A stretch of DNA of 64,000 nt, taken from assembly GCA_017413025.1 (NCBI GenBank), contig JAFPVE010000017.1, positions 44,159 to 108,158 on the forward strand. Reading direction: 5' to 3'. The DNA is from Acetobacter sp. (GTDB taxonomy: Bacteria; Pseudomonadota; Alphaproteobacteria; Acetobacterales; Acetobacteraceae). Below the pieces are notes generated by a model. It was given only the letters and a program-made list of their open reading frames with translations. It made no database searches and had not been told where the DNA came from. Position 1 is the first letter of the stretch. Each line of letters starts with the position of its first letter. Made by a program: the position numbers and the translations under genes. Below are positions 40,101 through 63,562 of the stretch, one piece after another.

Positions 40101-40181
40101 TGTGCAAGGCCACACTTGTGTATTATGCTGACAAGAACTCTGTATATTACGAGAAAAAAAATGTTTAGTCTGTATTGTCAT
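37134..40181 (-). CDS. glnE: Bifunctional glutamine synthetase adenylyltransferase/adenylyl-removing enzyme
   Basis: GlnE controls glutamine synthetase by adding or removing AMP in response to PII signals. Two nucleotidyltransferase domains are visible. The N-terminal removase has MGKLGSRELNFSSDIDIMVLY and the C-terminal transferase has ALGRLGSREMMPASDLDLMIV, each with the catalytic D-x-D. Between them is the regulatory helical region. At 1015 residues it is slightly longer than the E. coli protein (946). The N-terminal CTRWPKPADRVMAADF looks conserved, so a start at or near 40181 is likely. The start codon overlaps that of the divergent giant gene by two bases. Confidence 0.95.
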   Translation of the reverse strand: MTIQTKHFFSRNIQSSCQHNTQVWPCTRWPKPADRVMAADFVEEIHKLSDKIESKSDILQNASVRTLIACLGGNSPYLSDLVRGDIAGFITLLENGPKYYTQVALTECAKFNPNTKREEVVFFLRTLKKKIALACAVADLGGFWTLEEITMTLSSFAEAALELAIRHLLLRAFHTGQLELPNPEDPTRGCGFTVLAMGKLGSRELNFSSDIDIMVLYDPSFYTRSDDVRRVFIRLTNDLVNILEAHDEYGYVFRTDLRLRPDPSSTPPAVTVQAALVYYESLGQTWERAAMIRARTVAGDITLGKQFLADIRPFIWRRNLDFTLIDDLHDMKDRIDSYRHTGRRNLSELSDTMLMDVTMSYTWLLGHNVKLGQGGIREIEFIAQAKQLIWGGREHVLREKTTCGALKKLAAAGYLTYEEANVLIEAYYLLRETEHRLQMQNDYQTHSLPEDEVQFNSFAVFMNYPDGCAFAQHILPYMREVRRIFERNFITDHESVKADQNILISDLEEGKIEEVLLKYGFQEQQIAKSKQVLARWQGCSVRALRSARAQALLRSLFPLLLKSFSQSHDPFACLLNFDAFLTCQHAGVQVLTLFKHHPELIDKVTHIFNASPFLSDYLANHPSALEGLLEMAYDTTRVAVTRLYKSVKEVKSVEEKIKALCPLLRGEEFRLSVALLEGYMSEEMAERERTSLADVIIKILWEAVIEEHTAKYGHVHGGGMAVIALGRLGSREMMPASDLDLMIVCDYPETVQESFVKKGESGRSLEVNAYYTRLARALFAALTAPGTEGPLYTVDMRLRPSGRSGPIVVSRKAFLHYYANSAWTWERMALTRARIIVAPYFLRSVLTQDLAQILDGTILTVPPTCRSLREDARNMRLRLARDLPSTSMWDIKRRDGGLMEIEFIAQIFQLCAADARVRSPITRYALRRLAREGVLTKEQVATLCQAGSFWRRLQAQLRLLYGPKPPVDLEKELGHVACHVLLRNMKMRDIPALIERTEQLAKNVRGCFESLIGCL

Positions 40182-43100
40182 GAATAATACTCCCCCTCTC
40201 CTTTCTCACACAAAAGAAACATGTTCTTTGAAAAAGAGAAATTTTTTTCGTACTGCGTGCGTTTTCTTTTTCACATTTATTTCTCTTTCTCTTCTCATTG
40301 TTCTTTTATTTTTTATAGATATCTCTTTTAGACCTCTATCTATAAAACCAGTCTTACGCTATTTTTTACCTTTAACCATTATTCCCGCACAATCTGGTCA
40401 TCCGCCTGTACAATTAGATTTTCGTAATATCTCTTTATACTGGAATATCTTCCATAAGGGATTAAACGCACCGATAACCCTTTCTGCTACAGATATCACA
40501 CTTCAATTACCACAACACCATGGTTCAACACATAAGATTTCAACTAATTCAACCGTTCAAAAATTACCGCCACCAACAATAGGATCTGTTTATGACAGTA
40601 TACAACACCTTACCCTTGTGTTAGATCCCCGTGCTTTATTCCACGGCATATTTGCTCCAAAAAGTTTAGTGATTCATCAAGCCCAATTTAGTCTCATACG
40701 CAATCATAACAACACAATAGGGCTTGATTTTGGGCAAACATCAGATGTTTCCTCAAACAACAATATTCCTATAACACTCAATAATATTGAACATATCACT
40801 CTAGACAATGTAACCATTACCCTTCGCGACTCTCTTGTCCATACATGTTGGCGTATTTCACCTCTTAATGCCCATCTCAACCTTCATACAATTAACCAAC
40901 AAAAAGGGCTTATTGGCACACTTTCGGCAACCTTGGCTAATCGTGACATCCCTACTAACACTATACACTTTACAGCACGCGGGACTCCTACCAATACGCC
41001 CATTAATACAATCCAAAAACAATCTCAAAATGATTCAAGAGAAACATCGCCTCTCCCAACTTTGACAACCCCAAAAAATACCAATATTCAAAATATTTCT
41101 CTTCTCCCCTCTCAAAAAATGACTTTTAGACCTCAAAAAGTTGACAAGGGGATTTTATGGCATATGGAAATCGCTACGCCTCATTTAGGCGTATTTGACC
41201 ATACAATACCAGCTTTTTCTCTTTTCGATGTACCCCTTACCATTTCAGTTGATACGTGGTTTAGCCCAACTTTTTCACGTTATCAAAAACTACCAAAACA
41301 ACAACTAGCCGAGAAAAAAACATCATGGCTTTTACCACAAAGAATTACTCTTCATACCGTTCTCGGTGCGGGACATATGAGTATAGCAGGAAGCACTTAC
41401 GAAGCCGACCATGGACAACTTAACCTTACCCTTCAACAAAACATGTCTGACATAAACCAATCTCCTTTGACACAACTTAAGCTTTCTAATACAGAAATTG
41501 TTTTACGACACCCACAATACCCTCTGAATAATCAACATCAACTTACACTTCACCTCAACGGTCAGTTAACAGTATCAAACTTTCTTACCCCTTCAACAAT
41601 AAATGGCACCCTTACAGCCGATATTCCGCATGTCGCCTTTCAAGACCTCAACTACTATTGGCCGAATAAAGCCGCTAAAGGCGGTAAAGAATGGGTTACA
41701 AGAAATATTACATCGGGCATGGCTTCTCATCTTTATACGCAAATACGTTTTAAGAATTCCCAAGGCTGGAAGCACCTGAAAATTACCGGATTAGATGGAA
41801 ACGTCGATGCGAGAGGACTCACAATCCATTGGTTACGCCCCATTACGCCTATTAAAAATATGCATGCACGATTAGAAATACACAATCTTCATGTGTTAAC
41901 TATTGATTTTAATGGTGGATACCAACCCATAGGTCGTTACAGTCGAATAAAAACAGGACCGGGACGTATGACCATTAGCCATCTCGAACGTAAAATTCCA
42001 ACCGGTACTATTGTCTCCGATTTAGAAGGCAAACTAGATAGTGTCTTAAAACTCCTTAAAGAGCCTCGCTTACATTTATTTGTCCACCGTAAACTGAACT
42101 TAAGCAATCCACGCGGTAACACTAAAATCGCTTTCAAAATTTCTTTACCGCTCGCCAAACACATAAAAAATAGTGATATTCTTATAAATGTTCATGCGAA
42201 CATCACACATGCCGCACTTGATAATGTCGTCGCCGGACGCGGTATTACAAATGGGCATTTTATTTTAGATGCCGATACAAGCAAACTCTCCTTATCTGGA
42301 CAAGGAATGATTGGCAATATCCCCTCTCATATTTTTTACTCAGCTAATCTTCATCACGCTGGTCCACAAGAAATATTAGAACAAGCGCATGTCACTTCTT
42401 GCCTCACCCCTGCCCTTCTCGCTGCAGCGGGTTATCATACCGATAACTATTTTTACGGTAGCACAAACCTAACCGTCCAATATCGCCAAATGGGAAATCA
42501 TACAAGCACGATCCAAGTGGGATTAGACCTAACGCCAGCTCTTATAAAAACGCCCCTATGGCGTAAAAAAATAGGACAACCCGCCGAAGCTTCCGCTTCT
42601 ATAGAACTCACACATGGACATATTACAACGATTCAGCATATCACAGCTTTAGGTCAAGGGCTCTCTCTTCTAGGAAATGCAACAATTTATCCTGATAAAT
42701 CTTTTGATCTGTTTTTTTCCTCATTTCAAATTGCCAATTCTGTTGGACAGGCACAGTTTGTCTTTCCTACTTTCGCTTCTGATAAGGCTAAATTTCTTCA
42801 AAAACAGAAACGTATTGTTTACGCCAATATCCAAGCCAGCCGCCTTGATCTTTCTTCTCTCATAAGCCATAGGTTATCAGATCAAAAAATTAAAAAAGAA
42901 GTACAGCACACCTCAAACCTTCATAAAACCCAAACGATGAAAAGCCTTACTTGGATCGTTAATGTTGCAGCCCAAAACCTTTGGTATTCTAAAAATAAAC
43001 CTCCCATTAGCGGAGTTACAGCCTCTTTTGAAGAAAGCAAAAATCACCTTGAAAAATTAAATTTTTCTATGCGTGATCCAACCCCCGTTCAAATCAGCTT

Positions 43101-43695
43101 AACACCTGTTAAACAACAACGTGTTGTAACAGCCCGTATTGAGGATGTTGGTCATCTTCTGGCGGCATTTAATATTCTTCCAGACGTTCAAGGAGGAAAT
43201 GCTATTCTAAAAGGATCTTTTAACGATACAGAACCATCAGATCCTTTTAGCGGAAAAATTACTGTTTCCCCTTTTGTCCTCAACAAAGCCCCAACAACAC
43301 TACGCATTATGCGCGACGTCTCATTACCGAGCTGGATTACGGCACAAAACTCTTCAAGTTTAAAGATTACCCACCTGACCATACCTCTGACATTCGAAAA
43401 TGGGACGATCAAAATCAATAATGCGAGAACGGGAAATATGGCTCTTGGCGCGACAATAAAAGGAATCATTAACATTGCACAAAACAATATTCATTTACAA
43501 GGTACTGTTGCTCCTTTATTTGCTATTAACAGACTTCCCGGAAAAATACCTGGGCTTGGATGGATTTTTAGCCCAGAAAGAGAAAGCGGCATTTTGGCTT
43601 TTACGTTTGATGTCACAGGAAAATTAAAAAAACCTACACTCCATATCAACCCGTTTTCAATTTTATTGCCAGGCGCGTTACGGCACATCCTGTAA
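40180..43695 (+). CDS. YhdP-like AsmA-family giant membrane protein (DUF3971)
   Basis: This is a 1171-residue envelope protein of the AsmA/TamB/YhdP type, thought to bridge the periplasm and assist phospholipid transport to the outer membrane. It starts with a basic stretch and one hydrophobic segment (FFRTACVFFFTFISLSLLIVLLFF region, about residues 21-48). Then comes an all-beta repeat body and the typical end: LRIMRDVSLPSWI-like, then GTVAPLFAINRLPGKIPGLG and FDVTGKLKKPTLHINPFS with SILLPGALR. The TamB/AsmA-like C-terminal block is clear. Regulation is unknown; its start codon overlaps that of glnE on the opposite strand. Confidence 0.88.
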   Translation: MNNTPPLLSHTKETCSLKKRNFFRTACVFFFTFISLSLLIVLLFFIDISFRPLSIKPVLRYFLPLTIIPAQSGHPPVQLDFRNISLYWNIFHKGLNAPITLSATDITLQLPQHHGSTHKISTNSTVQKLPPPTIGSVYDSIQHLTLVLDPRALFHGIFAPKSLVIHQAQFSLIRNHNNTIGLDFGQTSDVSSNNNIPITLNNIEHITLDNVTITLRDSLVHTCWRISPLNAHLNLHTINQQKGLIGTLSATLANRDIPTNTIHFTARGTPTNTPINTIQKQSQNDSRETSPLPTLTTPKNTNIQNISLLPSQKMTFRPQKVDKGILWHMEIATPHLGVFDHTIPAFSLFDVPLTISVDTWFSPTFSRYQKLPKQQLAEKKTSWLLPQRITLHTVLGAGHMSIAGSTYEADHGQLNLTLQQNMSDINQSPLTQLKLSNTEIVLRHPQYPLNNQHQLTLHLNGQLTVSNFLTPSTINGTLTADIPHVAFQDLNYYWPNKAAKGGKEWVTRNITSGMASHLYTQIRFKNSQGWKHLKITGLDGNVDARGLTIHWLRPITPIKNMHARLEIHNLHVLTIDFNGGYQPIGRYSRIKTGPGRMTISHLERKIPTGTIVSDLEGKLDSVLKLLKEPRLHLFVHRKLNLSNPRGNTKIAFKISLPLAKHIKNSDILINVHANITHAALDNVVAGRGITNGHFILDADTSKLSLSGQGMIGNIPSHIFYSANLHHAGPQEILEQAHVTSCLTPALLAAAGYHTDNYFYGSTNLTVQYRQMGNHTSTIQVGLDLTPALIKTPLWRKKIGQPAEASASIELTHGHITTIQHITALGQGLSLLGNATIYPDKSFDLFFSSFQIANSVGQAQFVFPTFASDKAKFLQKQKRIVYANIQASRLDLSSLISHRLSDQKIKKEVQHTSNLHKTQTMKSLTWIVNVAAQNLWYSKNKPPISGVTASFEESKNHLEKLNFSMRDPTPVQISLTPVKQQRVVTARIEDVGHLLAAFNILPDVQGGNAILKGSFNDTEPSDPFSGKITVSPFVLNKAPTTLRIMRDVSLPSWITAQNSSSLKITHLTIPLTFENGTIKINNARTGNMALGATIKGIINIAQNNIHLQGTVAPLFAINRLPGKIPGLGWIFSPERESGILAFTFDVTGKLKKPTLHINPFSILLPGALRHIL

Positions 43696-55570: not shown

Positions 55571-57751
55571 ATGTCTTACTCTATTTCTTCAATTGCACGT
55601 TCAGCCTTTATAAAACTCGGCTTACAGCACATTGTCAAATCATTCTTTTCACCTAATAGTAAACAAAATATACCATTTGCGTGGTTGTTTACTCCAACCA
55701 TGCCCGCATTACGCTTTGCTTTATGTGCCTCTACAGCTGCCATACTCGCGGTTATTATTGCCGTATGGCTCGAGTTAGACGACCCTGCGTGGTCAGCCAT
55801 GTGTGTCTGGATTGTGGCACAAGGTACACGAGGTGAAAGTTTATCAAAATCTCGATGGCGCATTATTGGTACTACATTAGGAACCGTTATGGGATTTACC
55901 TTGGTTTCCGCGTTCTATCAACAACCTTGGCTCTTTTTCCCATTTTTAGGACTATGGATGGCTATTTGTTGTACATTAGCCGTGCTCACACGTAATTTCC
56001 GTTCATACGCGCTTGTCCTTGCAGGATATACAGCCGCAATCATCTCTGCACCAGCTATTGCTCATCCAGATAATATCTTTTTTATTTCCATGTCACGTAT
56101 GACGTATATCTTACTCGGAGTTGTATGTGAAAGTGTTATATCCAATCTCTTCTACCCCAATATGGCTAGTACAGCCCGCCGTAATATACGCAATAGGTTA
56201 CGCGCTGTTCTTAGTGATGTTTCTGAAAATATAGCAAGCTTACTTTCTGGTGATAGTGAAGCCTTAATCCGCGCACGATCAATGTTTGAACCTTTATTAG
56301 CTGTCAATAACCAAATTGAATTTTCTGTAAATGAAATGGGACCTCGCACCCATGAAGGAGACCATGCACGCGCAGCCCTTGCAACTGCTGCCGTTACTTT
56401 AGCACGCGGATTAAGTATGGCCACACAGTTAAAGTCTATTCAAACAGATCAGCCTATTTTCCGTGAAACATCGGCTATGATTAGTAGCTTTCTTATATCC
56501 TTACGTCAACGTCTCAATTCGGATACTCCTATCCGCGAACTGCTTCATGATTTGCGATTAGTCCGTGCAGAATGTCGTCAGCAAATCGTTAATGCTTTCT
56601 CGCAAGAAGTTAATGCTTCCTCTAACGCAGAAATGACCGTTTTACTTGATAGTCGCATTCTTCATAATTCATTAAATGAAATACTTTTAGAATTAGAACA
56701 CGCCCTTCAGGAATATGACGCTAGCCAACGTTCTACCTTTAATGACCGCTTTCGTTTGCGTATCCAAGGACATCTTGATAACAAAGAAGCTTTTTATAAT
56801 GGTATACGCGCTTTTACAACCACTATTTGTGGTGGATTAGTTTATGAATGTACAGCATGGCCTCAAGGGCTAACCTTTGTAACTTATGCTACTTTAGTCT
56901 GTGGACTATTTGGCGTAAGAGAAAATCCAGTCCTTGTAACATGGCAATTCTTTGTTGGCTGTTTATGGGCAGCACTTGTTTCATTTTTTCTGACATTTTA
57001 CGCCCTTCCAACACAACCTGTTTATGAAACTTTAGCTGCAACACTCGCTGTACCCTTTATCGCCGGAGGATTAGCTATGCGTAATCCGTCTACAGCCATT
57101 CAAGGCGTAGCTTTTACGCTTGTACTTCCCGCCGTGCTTCATCCCATTAACCAAGGTCGTACAGGCGAAATTGTTTGGTTTAATTCAACTTCAGCGACAG
57201 TATTAGGATGCGGTTTTGCCACATTGTGCTTCAGCTTAGTACTTCCTTTTAGCAATACAGATGAACGCCAATATATGCGCAAAATCATCTTAAAAGACCT
57301 ACGTAATTTAGCCTTAGATAATCAAACACCCTCTATGCAAAACTGGGTTACAAAGAATATTGATCGTCTTTCACGCCTAACACGACACGCAGGTGCAACA
57401 CCTTCTTCTACTATTGAACAATATTTACAAGGTGCACTTGCCACGATGACCATTGGCATCAATGTTATTCGGCTACGACTTCTTCTACAACGTAACCAAC
57501 TTCCCCCTACAGCTCATCAAATACTTGAAATGGTGATGTATCGCATGAGCCACTTTACAGGACGTTATGGACGGACGGCACGTACAGCGCATATGGCTAT
57601 AAGAACACTTCGCAACATGGAAGCCAATGAGTTCAATATGACCAAACGTATTGAACTTACTCGTGCCATTACCTATCTCACCGTCATTTCTTCTGAATTA
57701 GACGCCAACACAGCGTTTCTTAATACCTCTCAACCTTTTAAAGCTATCTAA
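55571..57751 (+). CDS. FUSC family efflux-type membrane protein
   Basis: This protein belongs to the fusaric-acid-resistance (FUSC/AaeB/YccS-like) family, thought to move aromatic acids or related molecules across the membrane. It has two repeats of about six hydrophobic segments: the first around residues 45-200 (with TAAILAVIIAVWLELDDPAWS and the RWRIIGTTLGTVMGF signature), the second around 405-545. Long soluble helical regions follow each. Length is 726. The usual partner genes (HlyD-type and DUF1656) are not next to it, so it may work alone or with distant partners. It converges on the lipid-transport operon. Confidence 0.88.
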   Translation: MSYSISSIARSAFIKLGLQHIVKSFFSPNSKQNIPFAWLFTPTMPALRFALCASTAAILAVIIAVWLELDDPAWSAMCVWIVAQGTRGESLSKSRWRIIGTTLGTVMGFTLVSAFYQQPWLFFPFLGLWMAICCTLAVLTRNFRSYALVLAGYTAAIISAPAIAHPDNIFFISMSRMTYILLGVVCESVISNLFYPNMASTARRNIRNRLRAVLSDVSENIASLLSGDSEALIRARSMFEPLLAVNNQIEFSVNEMGPRTHEGDHARAALATAAVTLARGLSMATQLKSIQTDQPIFRETSAMISSFLISLRQRLNSDTPIRELLHDLRLVRAECRQQIVNAFSQEVNASSNAEMTVLLDSRILHNSLNEILLELEHALQEYDASQRSTFNDRFRLRIQGHLDNKEAFYNGIRAFTTTICGGLVYECTAWPQGLTFVTYATLVCGLFGVRENPVLVTWQFFVGCLWAALVSFFLTFYALPTQPVYETLAATLAVPFIAGGLAMRNPSTAIQGVAFTLVLPAVLHPINQGRTGEIVWFNSTSATVLGCGFATLCFSLVLPFSNTDERQYMRKIILKDLRNLALDNQTPSMQNWVTKNIDRLSRLTRHAGATPSSTIEQYLQGALATMTIGINVIRLRLLLQRNQLPPTAHQILEMVMYRMSHFTGRYGRTARTAHMAIRTLRNMEANEFNMTKRIELTRAITYLTVISSELDANTAFLNTSQPFKAI

Positions 57752-57786: not shown

Positions 57787-58680
57787 CTATTTTTCTGATT
57801 CCGTCGATTCAGTTACTGATAGTGCTAGTTGTGCTAATGTTGCCGTATTCATAGTGTCTAATTTACTGAGCGTATCTGCTTTACCTAACATGACAGATGC
57901 ACTCTGTGCAGCACGCATCCATAAACCACGTGCCTTATTTTGTAGCCCCATTGTTTCGGCAATTCTTGCCTCAAGAATAAGAGCACGTAGCATATCGTGA
58001 TAAGCACCTATTTTCTGACGAATCTTTGCCGATTGATCAGCCAGAATAATCGCTTGCGCTGGATTATTTTTTCGTAAAGAACGAGCCTGCAACTCATCTA
58101 AATCCGCTAAATGCGTAAGAGATAACGGTTTTTTAAACCGTTCTAAGCGCGCAATCGCCTTTTCTAGTAGAAAATAATCCCCACGCCGATCAGCCGCAAC
58201 CCCAAGAATAAGAGCAGCACGGGCTGCTATTTCTGTATTTGGTACGTCTAAAAGTTCTTGTGCAAGATATTCCGCTTTCTCATAGCGACCAAGACGATCA
58301 TATACCGCCGCTTCAACAAGTAAAAGGTACGGAAGTGGTTTATTTTCACGTAAAAGAACAGCTTTACGCGTTACTTGCACTGTTTCTAGTGCTTTCTGCG
58401 GTTGATTTTCTGTCAATTGAGTAACAGCTAAATTATAGCCTGCTTCTTCCAAACCATACGCGCTATCATGTAAAAATGCTAAATCAAAGGCTTTACGGTA
58501 CTGTGTTTGTGCTGTTGCGTAACGCCCCAACATAAAAGAATCATGCCCTGCTGTTATGAATTGACTCCACATAGGACTTTCACGCAGCATAAGATTCTCT
58601 CTTTTCTCACCGCTACAAGCAGAAAGCAACAAAAACACTACCACTATTGAGCAATGAGTGGAAAAAAAAGTTGTTCTCAT
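57787..58680 (-). CDS. TPR-type lipoprotein, last gene of the Mla-like operon
   Basis: This is a 297-residue predicted lipoprotein (LLLSAC, Cys22) made of helical pairs of the tetratricopeptide kind: SFMLGRYATAQTQYRKAFDLA, AGYNLAVTQLTENQPQKALE, AVYDRLGRYEKAEYLAQELL and AALILGVAADRRGDYFLLEKA. It probably docks another protein in the periplasm. Its start overlaps the mlaD stop by four bases, so it is translated with the lipid-transport genes, and a role in that system is likely by context. The function is otherwise unknown. A short gap separates it from the convergent FUSC gene. Confidence 0.8.
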   Translation of the reverse strand: MRTTFFSTHCSIVVVFLLLSACSGEKRENLMLRESPMWSQFITAGHDSFMLGRYATAQTQYRKAFDLAFLHDSAYGLEEAGYNLAVTQLTENQPQKALETVQVTRKAVLLRENKPLPYLLLVEAAVYDRLGRYEKAEYLAQELLDVPNTEIAARAALILGVAADRRGDYFLLEKAIARLERFKKPLSLTHLADLDELQARSLRKNNPAQAIILADQSAKIRQKIGAYHDMLRALILEARIAETMGLQNKARGLWMRAAQSASVMLGKADTLSKLDTMNTATLAQLALSVTESTESEK

Positions 58681-59606
58681 GGCTGAACCTCAACAGGGTC
58701 AAGACGTTCATGTTGTATACTCTTGTGCCCACCCAAAAGCCACATCCCCCTAAGTTGAATAACCAACTTTTGCAACTCATATAAACTTACCTGAGCCTGC
58801 GTTAAAAGTGCCGGGAGATCTCCTGTACTTACCTCAACGTTATGAGCAATTTTTGGCAAGCGTGGAGTCGCCTTTTTAACATCGCCAGAAACTGCCTCAA
58901 CATTTTTCATAACACCAGAAACCTGTTCTTCTATAGGTTTTATCCGATTTATCACATCATTTAAAGAAACCATGACTTGCTCTGCCTGATGAATTAACTT
59001 ATCACTAGTCAGCAACTGTCCAACGGTTCCCTTACCCTCATGTACGTTAGTGATAGTGCTATCAAGTTGTGCCATCATATGACGTGCACTTACTAACACA
59101 GGTATAACTTCTGACTTAATACTCTCTAAAGTCGCTACAATTTGCTTTGTAGGATCAGGTGCTTGTTTTGCCGTAATCACGGCATAGCTCCAATCCATCG
59201 GCTTACCATGTCCACGAATCAATTCCAGATAAGAAGCACCTGCAACAACAAATTGACGACGAATCAAAGCAGTACTATCACGTCGAATAAAAGGTTTTGC
59301 TTGTGGGTCAAGATCCACGATCGCATACATATTTCCCGTAGGATTAAGCTTTATATAACGAATATTTCCCGCATGTGCCCCCATCAACTGAACATCTCCA
59401 CCAACGGTCAACCCTCCAACACCAGAAGATGGAAGAATAACACGCAAACGTGCAGGAGGCGTTAACCAATCACGCAAAACACCTGCTTCTATAATGGCAC
59501 AAACACAAATCACTATACTCAGAAAGACAAGAAAACCTACCCACTCATCCACATAACGTAGATCAATAAGAGGTTTGACTTTTTGCTTCAAACGAAACTG
59601 AAACAT
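58677..59606 (-). CDS. MlaD family protein (MCE domain)
   Basis: This is a 309-residue inner-membrane-anchored protein with one MCE domain, the periplasmic lipid-binding ring of Mla systems. There is one N-terminal transmembrane segment (about residues 22-44). The MCE core is LPSSGVGGLTVGGDVQLMGAHAGNI and AIVDLDPQAKPFIRRDSTA. A long alpha-helical part follows (about residues 150-300), with the PQQ-like STITNVHEGKGTVGQLLT block. The permease and the ABC protein lie upstream in the same operon. It is longer than E. coli MlaD (183) because of this helical tail. Confidence 0.93.
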   Translation of the reverse strand: MFQFRLKQKVKPLIDLRYVDEWVGFLVFLSIVICVCAIIEAGVLRDWLTPPARLRVILPSSGVGGLTVGGDVQLMGAHAGNIRYIKLNPTGNMYAIVDLDPQAKPFIRRDSTALIRRQFVVAGASYLELIRGHGKPMDWSYAVITAKQAPDPTKQIVATLESIKSEVIPVLVSARHMMAQLDSTITNVHEGKGTVGQLLTSDKLIHQAEQVMVSLNDVINRIKPIEEQVSGVMKNVEAVSGDVKKATPRLPKIAHNVEVSTGDLPALLTQAQVSLYELQKLVIQLRGMWLLGGHKSIQHERLDPVEVQP

Positions 59607-60307
59607 TAACCCATCCGTACTGTTACAAAGCCATTATCTGTAAAGCGCAAAGCTGATGTCACACCCTGTTGGTAATACTTACGCATAGCATTACCAGATG
59701 CTAACCAGACAACCCCTGCACCATAGTCTCTTGCACGCGTAATGGCTCTCAAAAAAGCATCTATTAGTTCCCTTGAAGCATCTCGCATAGGATCCTCCAA
59801 CAACAACAACTGTGGTCTTCCAAGCAAAGCACGCACACAATTCGCACGATGCAAATCCATCGCAGACATTGAATTAGGATTGAGCATGGGAAGACCTGGT
59901 AAACCAAACTCCTCTGACAATACAGCCGCATCAAACAGCAAAGTCTCTTGCGAGATTGTTGTATGATATAGCTGCTGCAACATTATTGCCATATGAACAG
60001 GCATAAAATCTGGCCAGCTTCTCCGTTTCGTTATACGTCCTATACGCCCACGTAAACTGTTAACCTCTTTTTCGTTTAAACGGCACCAATCAAACCCCAT
60101 AAACTGTACACTACCCGATTCTAACGGAACCAAACCACTACAAACATCAGCAAGCATTGTCGCACGACTTATATCGTGAATATCAATAAATACACAATCT
60201 CCAGGCATTAAGCGCATATTGAAAGGTACAGGAGGTAGTCCACTTTCTTCAAACGAAGGTACAGCATTTTTTAATTCTAACAAAGGTCCTGTAAAGGATA
60301 TTTTCAT
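59606..60307 (-). CDS. MlaF-like ABC protein without catalytic motifs (pseudo-ATPase)
   Basis: This 233-residue protein is collinear with ABC ATPases of the MlaF type, but nearly every catalytic motif is altered. The Walker A segment (GPSGIGKTT in MlaF) reads IHDISRATM at residues 43-51, so the glycines and the Lys are lost. The Q-loop position has no Gln (RITKRRSW). The signature LSGGQ-like segment reads MSAMD (147-151). Walker B is LLLLEDP (167-173), with the Asp and Glu exchanged. The H-loop His is lost (VVWLASGN). The frame is continuous, so this is not sequencing damage. The surrounding fold is retained (GSVQFMGFDWCRLNEKEV, RANCVRALLGRPQLL), which argues for a structural or regulatory role. 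Confidence 0.85.
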   Translation of the reverse strand: MKISFTGPLLELKNAVPSFEESGLPPVPFNMRLMPGDCVFIDIHDISRATMLADVCSGLVPLESGSVQFMGFDWCRLNEKEVNSLRGRIGRITKRRSWPDFMPVHMAIMLQQLYHTTISQETLLFDAAVLSEEFGLPGLPMLNPNSMSAMDLHRANCVRALLGRPQLLLLEDPMRDASRELIDAFLRAITRARDYGAGVVWLASGNAMRKYYQQGVTSALRFTDNGFVTVRMG

Positions 60308-60308
60308 T

Positions 60309-61217
60309 TTATAGATCCAAGCTAAACAGAACGCTCACAAGCATCACAATTAGTAGCCCCCTAGAAAAACTTCTTGGTAATAATGAACGTAGTGTATCTT
60401 GATTCGTAGCCGTAAGTCCTGTTAAACACCCACCCAGCCCTACAACAAAACCAACGATAATAAAGTTCAAAGGAATAGCGACATAATCAAGCGGAGAAAC
60501 AGCCGACATAAGATTACTAAAAAACGTCCAAACAGGTGCTGTAATAACACCAGAAATGCGACTCATGACATATCCTGTAATAAGAGACGCACAAGAAAAC
60601 AAAATCCCTAGCGTAAAACCTCCCACAGTAAAGGCAAGAGTACGCGGCAAAATAAGCAATAGAAAAGGATCAATACCCATTGCTTGCATAGAACGAATTT
60701 CCCCGTTCATAACCAACAAACCTAGCTCAGTCGTTGACAATATCCCGTTACGACCGAGAAGAAGTACGCCAACTAAAATAGGCGCAATTTCGCGTACCAC
60801 AATATTAATTAAGACAGATCCCGTCATCGTCGCGAGTCCTGCAAACCCTAACCAATAAATCACCTGAGATACTGCAGCAACTCCTGTTAAAACTCCCGTA
60901 AACACTGTTGCAAAAAGCCCTCCACGAATAATGCTATTTGTTGTGCTAACAAACTCATAACGAACACTTCTCCGCCAAGAACTTACCCGCAAGCTTTCGA
61001 AGACAACACCCCAAAACGCCCCTAACATAATCAGGAGAAACCTTATATGCCGACGAAATATCTGCCCTATCCATACAAACCTACGTCGTATCCAACACAA
61101 CAGAACAGAAACACTTTTCTCTCGTCTCTGAGACAGTTCTGACATATGATCAGTATCATTTTCTGATAATACGTCTTGATCTGGATTTTGTTCTTGCTGA
61201 ATAGGAAAATCTCTCAT
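60309..61217 (-). CDS. MlaE family ABC permease
   Basis: This is a 302-residue permease of the MlaE family. After a soluble, charged N-terminus (about 55 residues) come five to six hydrophobic segments. The core is marked by REIAPILVGVLLLGRNG (cf. the REXXPXLXGXXXAGR family motif), TTELGLLVMNGEIRSMQAMGIDPFLLLILPR and GLGGCLTGLTATNQ. Pairing with MlaD and the ABC protein is standard for phospholipid transport between the membranes. It overlaps the end of the sensor gene by four bases and lies one base before the ABC gene. Confidence 0.94.
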   Translation of the reverse strand: MRDFPIQQEQNPDQDVLSENDTDHMSELSQRREKSVSVLLCWIRRRFVWIGQIFRRHIRFLLIMLGAFWGVVFESLRVSSWRRSVRYEFVSTTNSIIRGGLFATVFTGVLTGVAAVSQVIYWLGFAGLATMTGSVLINIVVREIAPILVGVLLLGRNGILSTTELGLLVMNGEIRSMQAMGIDPFLLLILPRTLAFTVGGFTLGILFSCASLITGYVMSRISGVITAPVWTFFSNLMSAVSPLDYVAIPLNFIIVGFVVGLGGCLTGLTATNQDTLRSLLPRSFSRGLLIVMLVSVLFSLDL

Positions 61218-63562
61218 CGACGAGCAACCAACGTATAAGCACGCCCAACACCTAAATTAGAGGCAAAAAATGTTCCACGACTACGAAGGAGATATTGTTC
61301 TCGCAATACCGCGTAAACACGTTCTGTTACCTGAATAACTCCTGGATCAGAAGCGCTTTCAGCCATAAGTTCAGCCAGAGAAACTGTCTGCCCCCACAAA
61401 TTAAAAACGTGCCCTTCCTCTCCTAGCATTCCTCCAAAAGCTGGTCCGTAATCAATACCCATAGAAAAAACAGGTTCCAAATCAGCATCTGCCAACGTAC
61501 GAATAAAAGCCTCACGCATTTTTAGAGCTGCATCAGCAATACACACAAGAGCATTGGAATCAGACTGTGTTGTACAACCTGCCATACAGATCATTCTATG
61601 TCCTGCTAATTCAACGGCAAAAAGCTGCTTCTCCTCTGCAACTGTCTTAACATCTATAGCCAAACGACTAATTAGTGTCAAAAGACTCTCAACATCCCGC
61701 ACATTCATTATAACCGGATCAGAAAAGGTAACAACGAGCACGGCAACAGCATCATAAACCCCTACCCCTCGCATAGAGTCCAAAGCTGGATCCTGCATTA
61801 AAAGATTATTAAATTGCAAAGGAGAAAGAATACTTTTTTCTATTTTATTGTCTTTCTCTTTAGCATCTTCTCGTGAAGAAAGACGAGATTCATTTTGTGT
61901 TTGTGCTGAAAAACGTATTCCAGAAATTGCGCTCACTAACGCCATAAAATACTGTTGATATGGTGCTATTGTCGCATCTTCTAATATTAGTACCCCTTGA
62001 ACCCTCTGTAGACTACCCGTAATAGGATACATTGACAATGCATGTGTACCAATTTCACGCATAACCAAACGATCAAAGGCTTTTGTACGTTCATCTAAAT
62101 CTGCAGATGGAACCTCTATAATATTCCCTTCCTCTACTGCTAAAAAAAATGGCTCGAGTTGGGAACGACCAATTTGAAATCCACCTGTATGCGTATTTTG
62201 CATACCATCATAAGAATCTTCGCAGATTATACCCGCACCATCATGCAAAAAACGCCACAAACTCGCACGACGTGCCTGAGTCACCTGAACTAATTGTTCT
62301 GTCAACACTGTAGGTTCTGCCGTAGGATTAAATAAGTCAGGTGCTACTGCAACTTTCCATACTGCTGTACTTTCGCGGATCATCTGAGACCTCTGCTCCG
62401 TTATAATACGAAGACCTCGCTCTGCACGCCGTAATTGTCGAATAAACAATCCCCCTAACAAACCAGAAAAGACTATAATAATTCCAACAAATTTAAGACT
62501 TTGCCGACGACTTTGAGTTGCAAAACTTGAGAAATCTTTTTCTGGAACAACAATCAGTAAAACCCATCCCGTTGAGTACTTTAACTTAGAAGATAAAACG
62601 ATATAGGATTTTCCTTTTCGTGTAATATACGCTGCGCCAGGTCCCATCACACGATAATGATCATATCCAAGAGCAAAAATTGGGTGGTTAGTTGGACCAA
62701 GCACCCTACTTTCTGATGTCAATCTTCTCCCTACTGCCCATCTACTCGAAAAAAGATGCGGAACTATCAGCATGTCCCGTGCAGCAATCATTCGCCCGTC
62801 ATTATCGACAATCATTGCATTACCGTCATGTCCAATTTTAATATCTCCAAGATAATCACTTAACTCATTCAAAGAGATATTTGCTGCATAGACAAATGTA
62901 TGTCCGTCATCAGAATGAAATCGAATAGAGCTCGTCATAACCAACTGCCTATCTGCTGGAAATAAAAATGGTTTAGCCCATTTTATTCCCTTCACATTTG
63001 CAGTATCCTTATACCAAGAACGCTCACGCGGATCATATTGACCAGCGCTTTGCTCGTATTCTTTAATTTTAATACCTCGAATATTGTACAACGTATGGCG
63101 AAAAAAACGTTGTTTCCCTTTTGTTACTAATTTGATATGATCAAAAACACCTTTCTGTTGCGCACGGGTTATTAATATAAAATCACCTTGATCATTTGCC
63201 AGATAAAATGATTGAAGCTGCGGTACTTTTTGCAACATCGTTGTGCTATACGAATAAAAAATCTTGTCTCGTAATTGAGGAGGGGTATATGCTAGCATGC
63301 TACTCGCCACCATATCCCCAGCAGAAGCGGGCATAATATACCCCCCCACTTCTTGTCCAATATAACGCTGAGACGCATCCATTAAATCACGCGTTAGTTT
63401 TAATGCACCGTTATTGGTTGCTTTGTAAGAAGTAATACCCACCCATGCAATAACCCCCAACGCCACCACTGTCAGAAAAAACGGCAAAACAAAATGCACC
63501 CATGTACGTTCACGATCTGTTTCGTCTATAACAACAGGATCTATAATTTCTTTAGAAGACAT
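61214..63562 (-). CDS. Membrane sensor with Cache, GAF and degenerate cyclase domain
   Basis: This 782-residue protein is encoded first in the operon. A transmembrane segment (about residues 21-45) leads to a periplasmic double-Cache sensor domain (about 50-355; KDTANVKGIKWAKPFLFPAD is typical). A second transmembrane segment (about 359-380) follows. The cytoplasmic part has a GAF domain (about 420-555) and a class III adenylate/guanylate-cyclase-like domain (about 605-775; FSMGIDYGPAFGGMLGEEGHVFNLWGQ region). The first metal Asp is kept (TFSDP). The second is His (AGHRM where GD is normal), and the VN..R pair is VS..E (TVSLAELM). It should therefore not make a cyclic nucleotide. It may act as a signal-binding or scaffold part for the transporter. 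Confidence 0.85.
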   Translation of the reverse strand: MSSKEIIDPVVIDETDRERTWVHFVLPFFLTVVALGVIAWVGITSYKATNNGALKLTRDLMDASQRYIGQEVGGYIMPASAGDMVASSMLAYTPPQLRDKIFYSYSTTMLQKVPQLQSFYLANDQGDFILITRAQQKGVFDHIKLVTKGKQRFFRHTLYNIRGIKIKEYEQSAGQYDPRERSWYKDTANVKGIKWAKPFLFPADRQLVMTSSIRFHSDDGHTFVYAANISLNELSDYLGDIKIGHDGNAMIVDNDGRMIAARDMLIVPHLFSSRWAVGRRLTSESRVLGPTNHPIFALGYDHYRVMGPGAAYITRKGKSYIVLSSKLKYSTGWVLLIVVPEKDFSSFATQSRRQSLKFVGIIIVFSGLLGGLFIRQLRRAERGLRIITEQRSQMIRESTAVWKVAVAPDLFNPTAEPTVLTEQLVQVTQARRASLWRFLHDGAGIICEDSYDGMQNTHTGGFQIGRSQLEPFFLAVEEGNIIEVPSADLDERTKAFDRLVMREIGTHALSMYPITGSLQRVQGVLILEDATIAPYQQYFMALVSAISGIRFSAQTQNESRLSSREDAKEKDNKIEKSILSPLQFNNLLMQDPALDSMRGVGVYDAVAVLVVTFSDPVIMNVRDVESLLTLISRLAIDVKTVAEEKQLFAVELAGHRMICMAGCTTQSDSNALVCIADAALKMREAFIRTLADADLEPVFSMGIDYGPAFGGMLGEEGHVFNLWGQTVSLAELMAESASDPGVIQVTERVYAVLREQYLLRSRGTFFASNLGVGRAYTLVARR

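Follow-up and report, generated by a model that had tools for sequence, protein, structure and literature searches.

A conserved operon of Acetobacteraceae for a proposed MCE-type transport system in which the ATPase-like subunit has lost its ATP-handling motifs

Hydrolysis of ATP is the defining feature of ATP-binding cassette (ABC) transporters, and the locus described here raises the question of what remains of such a system when its only ATPase-like subunit has lost a competent ATP site. The locus lies in a stretch of 64,000 nucleotides of contig JAFPVE010000017.1 of Acetobacter sp. (assembly GCA_017413025.1), the whole of which is called the window below. Its central gene (59606..60307, minus strand) is an open, unbroken reading frame for a protein of 233 amino acids, here termed the pseudo-ATPase, which is predicted to adopt the fold of an ABC nucleotide-binding domain (predicted local distance difference test, pLDDT, 92.7) and scores 16.5 bits against Pfam ABC_tran, under the gathering cut-off of 25. 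Alignment with two intact MlaF proteins of the same genome places IHDISRATM (residues 43-51; 60155..60181) at the Walker A motif, Lys94 (60026..60028) in place of the Q-loop Gln, MSAMD (residues 147-151; 59855..59869) at the signature, LLLLEDP (residues 167-173; 59789..59809) at Walker B and Ser204 (59696..59698) in place of the H-loop His. Judged against the usual phosphate-loop geometry, the phosphate loop of the model seems closed, because the predicted helix begins at residue 46, three residues ahead of the Walker A Lys position (49). An earlier note, made from the letters of the window alone, had described the same losses at exactly these positions in an intact frame, and had called the protein MlaF-like; this name is supported by the operon context but not by profile comparison, in which the family matched the known chains MacB, BceA, LolD and FtsE at approximately 58-68 bits and MlaF at 55.5 bits. 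At its C-terminus the pseudo-ATPase is approximately 35 residues shorter than MlaF and therefore lacks the handshake extension described for that protein (PMC7367683, in excerpt).

To place this copy among its relatives, a family-wide profile built from 56 orthologs was run on 397 Acetobacteraceae genomes, of which 137 are counted as carriers (profile rows of 158-352 bits, the threshold being at least 158 bits). Loci were fetched from relatives as 76 stretches of 3-18 kb (56 first and 20 further), and the ortholog alignment likewise contains 76 sequences, namely 55 of the first 56 loci (the fragmented locus L092 being omitted), the 20 later loci and the window copy; the motif counts refer to these sequences, further carriers being counted by profile. 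Neither the Walker A Lys nor the last Gly of the P-loop is kept in any ortholog (0/76 for each), and in the signature LSGGx the first Gly is kept in 2/76 and the second in 4/76, an [LI]SGG string being found in one ortholog (L144) and Asp at the fifth place in 70/76. The Walker B Asp is retained once and Glu stands there in 73/76, the catalytic Glu is present in 10/76 (the window reads ED), and the H-loop His is found in 2/76 in one alignment and 0/76 in the second, since conservation counts vary with which of the two alignments is used. The control, consisting of the intact MlaF paralogs of 29 carrier genomes, retains each of these motif residues, and the Q-loop Gln as well, in 29/29; the D-loop Asp, present in 17/29 of these proteins as aligned, was not used for comparison. 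Because none of the orthologs keeps the motif while the intact MlaF control keeps it throughout, the aligned sequences show that the operon copy lost it long ago and in common across several genera. The sharing of the loss among relatives, which the earlier note had raised as a point to check, is thus confirmed, and its age and spread across genera go beyond that note, as does the catalytically degenerate cyclase domain that the same operon appears to carry.

No ancestral form of the operon still possessing Walker A was found in the 397 family genomes searched with the family profile, in 200 genomes of the family searched with the permease profile or in 289 genomes of the class; these searches scored the best 7 candidates per genome in the 397-genome set and up to 19 in another, and divergent copies may escape. 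The motif is already missing from every aligned ortholog, also from the one (G470) that belongs to a different family of the class. Across the whole family, the P-loop columns have a mean entropy of 2.50, compared with 1.99 for the average column, and the helix after the signature is well conserved (1.12). Several residues absent from both MlaF proteins of the source genome are invariant or nearly so, namely Arg86 and Gly138 (76/76), Pro140 (75/76), Trp74 and His115 (74/76), Glu171 (73/76), Trp98 (72/76) and Asp151 (70/76). Because the P-loop columns are variable and these invariant residues are lacking in the two MlaF proteins, the ATP site is, to judge from conservation, abandoned across the whole family while other parts of the protein have gained new constraint.

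The gene is nevertheless, as the earlier note had supposed, under selection, which is purifying and comparable to that on the working MlaF in the same species pair. Between the source genome and a relative (G012), the ratio of nonsynonymous to synonymous substitution rates (dN/dS, simple pairwise NG86 estimate) is 0.116 for the pseudo-ATPase; the other operon products give 0.129 (MlaE), 0.077 (MlaD), 0.143 (cyclase-like protein) and 0.201 (tetratricopeptide repeat, TPR, lipoprotein). Two control proteins of the same pair, intact MlaF and the Mla-type MlaE, give 0.135 and 0.076, respectively. Over 12 species pairs (those of 14 with a finite dS, many of them near saturation), the ratio for the pseudo-ATPase ranges from 0.061 to 0.330. 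An intact Walker A in close relatives combined with a decaying gene, the outcome that the earlier note had set against its own reading, was looked for and not found.

The pseudo-ATPase is the third of five minus-strand genes that overlap or are separated by a few bases and all have intact frames. The first (61214..63562, 782 amino acids; reading frame, Pfam and structure comparison) encodes a membrane protein with dCache, GAF and class III cyclase-like domains, and the second (60309..61217, 302 amino acids) an MlaE-family permease (PF02405, 114.1 bits, cut-off 22.5). Downstream of the pseudo-ATPase are genes for an MCE (MlaD-like) protein (58677..59606, 309 amino acids; PF02470, 38.2 bits, cut-off 25.1) with a predicted long helical C-terminal part, and for a TPR-like lipoprotein (57787..58680, 297 amino acids; reading frame, Pfam scan and relatives) with the lipobox LSAC, read from the sequence. 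In the model of the MCE protein, residues 16-41 form a membrane helix and residues 52-148 a beta domain, followed by low-confidence helices at 152-189, 202-246 and 266-289. Among the first 56 loci, homologs of the cyclase-like gene, mlaE, the pseudo-ATPase gene and mlaD are present in 56/56 and the TPR gene in 52/56 (5 of these 52 proteins show no lipobox under the pattern used), and in 55 of these loci the intergenic spacing is at most 40 nucleotides between mlaE and the pseudo-ATPase gene in 49 and between the latter and mlaD in 53. Of the 20 further loci, 20 contain mlaE, 19 mlaD, 17 the TPR gene and 14 the cyclase-like gene, and all six without the last belong to genus g119, one of them being truncated by a contig end. 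The permease and the pseudo-ATPase co-occur, being found in 60 and 61 of 200 genomes, respectively, with one genome (G196) as the sole difference. No STAS (MlaB-like) partner was detected among the five operon proteins at an E-value of 0.1, and no PqiC-type lipoprotein (ABC_trans_aux) was matched in the operon, in which the TPR-like lipoprotein is found instead. In three loci of g119 (L138, L139 and L140), a gene for a family 5 solute-binding protein is located farther upstream of mlaE.

The cyclase-like domain of the first gene (61265..61693) matches PF00211 at 60.4 bits (cut-off 21.9). A pair of metal-binding Asp residues and a transition-state Asn and Arg are taken here to be the catalytic residues of such domains. 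By comparison with an adenylate cyclase structure (5o5k), the second metal Asp is replaced in the window by His, the Asn by Ser and the Arg by Leu, and among the 67 sequences counted (L081, L092 and new loci of at most 600 bits being excluded) these residues are kept in 5, 3 and 4, respectively, while the Asp of the DVWG motif is kept in 0/67, with Asn there in 63/67. The first metal Asp is kept in 45/67 in the MAFFT register, which is uncertain at this point, and this counts against a reading in which all catalytic residues are lost. Taken together, the alignment suggests that the first gene probably carries a pseudo-cyclase domain that is catalytically degenerate in most relatives.

The permease has changed where an ATPase would be expected to dock. 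In MlaFEDB, the coupling helix of MlaE between transmembrane segments TM2 and TM3 touches MlaF (PMC7790496, in excerpt); the corresponding region of the window permease (60666..60713) is rewritten, with NGEIRSM aligned to TDQIDAL. The Asp of QIDAL is present in 28/28 Mla-type MlaE proteins of carrier genomes (28 obtained from 29 MlaF loci), whereas in 74 operon permeases (proteins of at most 240 amino acids and new loci of at most 200 bits being excluded) Arg is the commonest residue at the same position (53), followed by Ala (7) and Lys (6), and Asp is kept in 2; three residues earlier, Asp in 26/28 of the Mla-type proteins faces Gly in 68/74 of the operon permeases. This docking-helix Asp is apparently the Asp of the EExDA motif of mycobacterial permeases, which has been proposed as a shared site for MceG (PMC9947336, in excerpt). 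In the permease tree, the operon permeases group together (support 0.91) and are separate both from the Mla-type proteins and from a single permease on contig C15 of the source genome. Because the coupling helix is rewritten, the permease and the pseudo-ATPase are read as co-adapted, and no other finding speaks as strongly against an ordinary MlaF as the motor of the operon permease.

These features are consistent with a reading to which we give an even chance: the five genes would encode an envelope-spanning MCE-type lipid-transfer complex in which the former ATPase serves as a non-hydrolysing clamp or gate and does not drive lipid movement by ATP. The MlaE-like permease would be located in the inner membrane, the long C-terminal helices of the MCE protein would extend into the periplasm, and the TPR lipoprotein would probably be at the outer membrane. 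The pseudo-ATPase, retaining its fold, would dock on the co-adapted coupling helix of MlaE as a structural clamp or gate without hydrolysing ATP, the sensor with the dead cyclase domain would probably set this gate upon a periplasmic signal, and lipid flow would be driven by a lipid gradient or another force. A clamp or gate on MlaE is the likeliest role because the only ATPase-like subunit has no competent ATP site, and the operon should, by analogy, encode an inner-to-outer membrane bridge because the Mpc system of Brucella has a long MCE layout like the one predicted here at low confidence. What the analysis shows directly are the sequence features, the predicted fold, the conservation, the gene order and the selection; from them we infer the complex itself, its lipid cargo, the docking, the gate function, the passive flow, its direction and its energy source. 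A bolder version, possible rather than expected, holds that the operon represents a whole lineage of MlaE/MCE lipid transporters that has abandoned ATP, such that a pseudoenzyme gate on the rewritten helix, governed by the dead cyclase sensor, would control a signal-gated, energy-independent lipid channel between both membranes.

Several observations weigh against a non-hydrolysing clamp or gate in such a bridge. The Q-loop Gln is kept in 18/76 orthologs, Ser or Thr stands at the last Walker A place in 38/76 and the signature Ser is retained in 49/76, and it is possible from the sequence that ATP is bound in an unusual mode. Two of the 12 species pairs show a higher dN/dS for the pseudo-ATPase (0.289 and 0.330), and 5 of the 76 fetched loci contain operon genes in pieces (L072, L078, L081, L092 and L145). 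In the five assessable loci of genus g119, no cyclase-like gene was found upstream, so that this gene is not obligatory. The C-terminal part of the MCE protein is modelled with low confidence (mean pLDDT 64.8), the bridge being proposed by analogy, and all 32 carriers checked (32/32) encode an intact MlaF, so that a mixed dimer is possible.

The last point underlies the alternative that survives best, although we regard it as unlikely, namely that the motor of the operon permease is an intact MlaF encoded elsewhere, acting by itself or paired with the pseudo-ATPase as a mixed dimer. A second ATPase elsewhere in the genome had been suggested in the earlier note, and the source genome indeed encodes two intact MlaF-type proteins, one on contig C16 (GRSGSGKS, LSGGM, FDEP and TH) and one on contig C15 (GGSGCGKS, ISGGM, FDEP and SH), with ABC_tran scores of 116.7 and 98.3 bits. 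When orthologs were sought at an E-value of 1e-60 in 30 carriers, an intact MlaF was found in 29; direct reading then revealed divergent but intact copies in G101, which is the thirtieth, as well as in G187 and G137. MceG, which is common to Mce1 and Mce4, provides a precedent for a shared ATPase (PMC9947336, in excerpt), and dimers with one degenerate site are common among ABC exporters (PMC7756269, in excerpt). However, the intact MlaF adjoins its own MlaE in the source genome and in four further loci that were read, the docking-helix Asp found in every Mla-type MlaE is nearly absent from the operon permeases, and both composite sites of a mixed dimer would be expected to lack one half, because both Walker A and the signature are missing from the pseudo-subunit. 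No intact ABC ATPase was detected by motif pattern on the operon strand of the 76 fetched loci, and the three loci with such a gene near the operon have it on the opposite strand. Of the two readings offered in the earlier note, another ATPase as the power source or a passive lipid bridge, the coupling helix and this absence make us lean against the first, borrowed ATP power. The MlaF of contig C15 belongs to an operon of its own (L067:717-4294) that resembles the Mpc system of Brucella; its MlaE matches STAS weakly (23.5 bits, cut-off 29.2), and it also encodes an intact ATPase, an MCE protein and an ABC_trans_aux lipoprotein.

Next in order, and also improbable, is the view that the subunit binds ATP or another nucleotide without hydrolysing it and acts as a sensor of energy or of a second messenger that opens or closes the permease. 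A signalling-like protein with dCache, GAF and a cyclase fold heads the operon, a carboxylate is retained at the Walker B Asp position as Glu, and the former Walker A stretch varies rather little within the genus, most sequences reading RATMFAD; a re-used binding site would, however, not be expected to have P-loop columns more variable than average, and the seemingly closed phosphate loop of the model also argues against it. Doubtful, and placed after the nucleotide sensor, is an assembly that transports nothing, in which the permease and the ATPase would have been re-used as a scaffold for sensing or for tethering the two membranes. Such an assembly would suit an operon framed by a sensor domain and a TPR lipoprotein, with two enzyme folds both stripped of catalytic residues, but MlaE and the MCE domain exceed their family cut-offs and both are conserved, with the low dN/dS values given above for the closest pair. 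The 1.46 Mb draft in 45 contigs, the fragmented operon of G196 and the broken operon genes at four other loci might be cited in favour of a sequencing error, or of pseudogene decay in a reduced genome, but this explanation is ruled out for practical purposes by the loss common to all 76 aligned orthologs, the low dN/dS and the intact frames of the five window genes.

The operon differs from each of the closest known systems. Compared with Escherichia coli MlaFEDB, it has lost the ATP motifs, shows no MlaB/STAS match, has a rewritten coupling helix and predicted long MCE helices, and has added a TPR lipoprotein and a probably dead cyclase. PqiABC and LetAB are likewise MCE-based lipid systems and are not known to have an ABC ATPase, but they use PqiA/LetA-type membrane proteins rather than an MlaE permease together with a subunit that keeps the ABC fold. 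The Pqi components are PqiABC (PMC10897342, in excerpt). The Mpc system of Brucella abortus (MpcEFDA), a chimera of Mla and Pqi, was recovered as a complex in pull-downs and has been proposed to span both membranes; it shares with the operon a four-gene core of a permease, an ATPase-like subunit, an MCE protein (long and helical in Mpc, predicted so at low confidence in the operon) and a lipoprotein, and differs in that its own ATPase is homologous to MlaF, its permease has a STAS domain and its lipoprotein is of the PqiC type (PMC12436622, in excerpt). The mycobacterial Mce1 and Mce4 systems likewise have MlaE-like permeases, and one ATPase, MceG, serves several transporters; there the shared ATPase works, and the permeases carry the EExDA motif, whose Asp most operon permeases have lost (PMC9947336, in excerpt). 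In degenerate-site ABC exporters (MRP1, Pdr5 and ABCG5/G8), loss of catalytic residues is also held by selection, but one working site is retained (PMC7756269, in excerpt), whereas a homodimer of the operon subunit would have none, because the sole ATPase-like gene has lost Walker A, Walker B, the signature and the H-loop. An MCE system whose only encoded ATPase-like subunit cannot hydrolyse ATP would separate the role of scaffold from that of motor, and would bear on what powers lipid flow between bacterial membranes and in which direction. Since the operon occurs in approximately one-third of the sampled Acetobacteraceae, including the genus Acetobacter, for which laboratory strains exist, gene deletion and purification are feasible. 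Among the papers listed by searches of the open-access literature, none was seen to describe an MlaF-type subunit that lacks its motifs or an MCE operon whose cyclase is degenerate.

The gene was present in all 37 genomes of the genus that were examined (36 relatives and the source genome), and the locus was also found in an Acetobacter sp. metagenome-assembled genome from sheep abomasum. Below the carriers in the family-wide search are a second piece of one carrier, G391 (126.7 bits), an end fragment in G355 (86.5 bits, not counted as a carrier) and ordinary ABC proteins of at most 81.3 bits. Class-wide, 5 of 289 genomes match at 1e-25, one of them (G470, locus L135) from another family, with the same operon and the same motif loss; given this copy, the operon either predates the family or was transferred. 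No match was obtained in 72,556 plasmid records or in PHROGs. In genus g56 (for example, G239 and G103), the profile matches cross one TGA in approximately ten genomes, and in the G239 locus (L101) the frame stops near the C-terminus, the protein seeming a few residues shorter.

Among the loci with operon genes in pieces, mlaD appears split in L072 (G014), mlaE in L078 (G212), and both the cyclase-like gene and mlaE in L081 (G206), and L145 (G331) also shows pieces. In L092 (G196), the cyclase-like gene, mlaE and mlaD are fragmented in a one-contig genome, and its genus mate G117 (L091) retains the operon, as in a natural loss. The split genes of these five loci are due either to decay or to assembly error. 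Elsewhere in the window, a gene for a FUSC-family transporter (55571-57751, 487.8 bits) lies beyond the 3′-end of the operon in convergent orientation, and at 40180-43695 a protein of 1171 amino acids shows a weak match to YhdP (AsmA-like; 41.8 bits, cut-off 46) and is possibly another lipid-transport protein.
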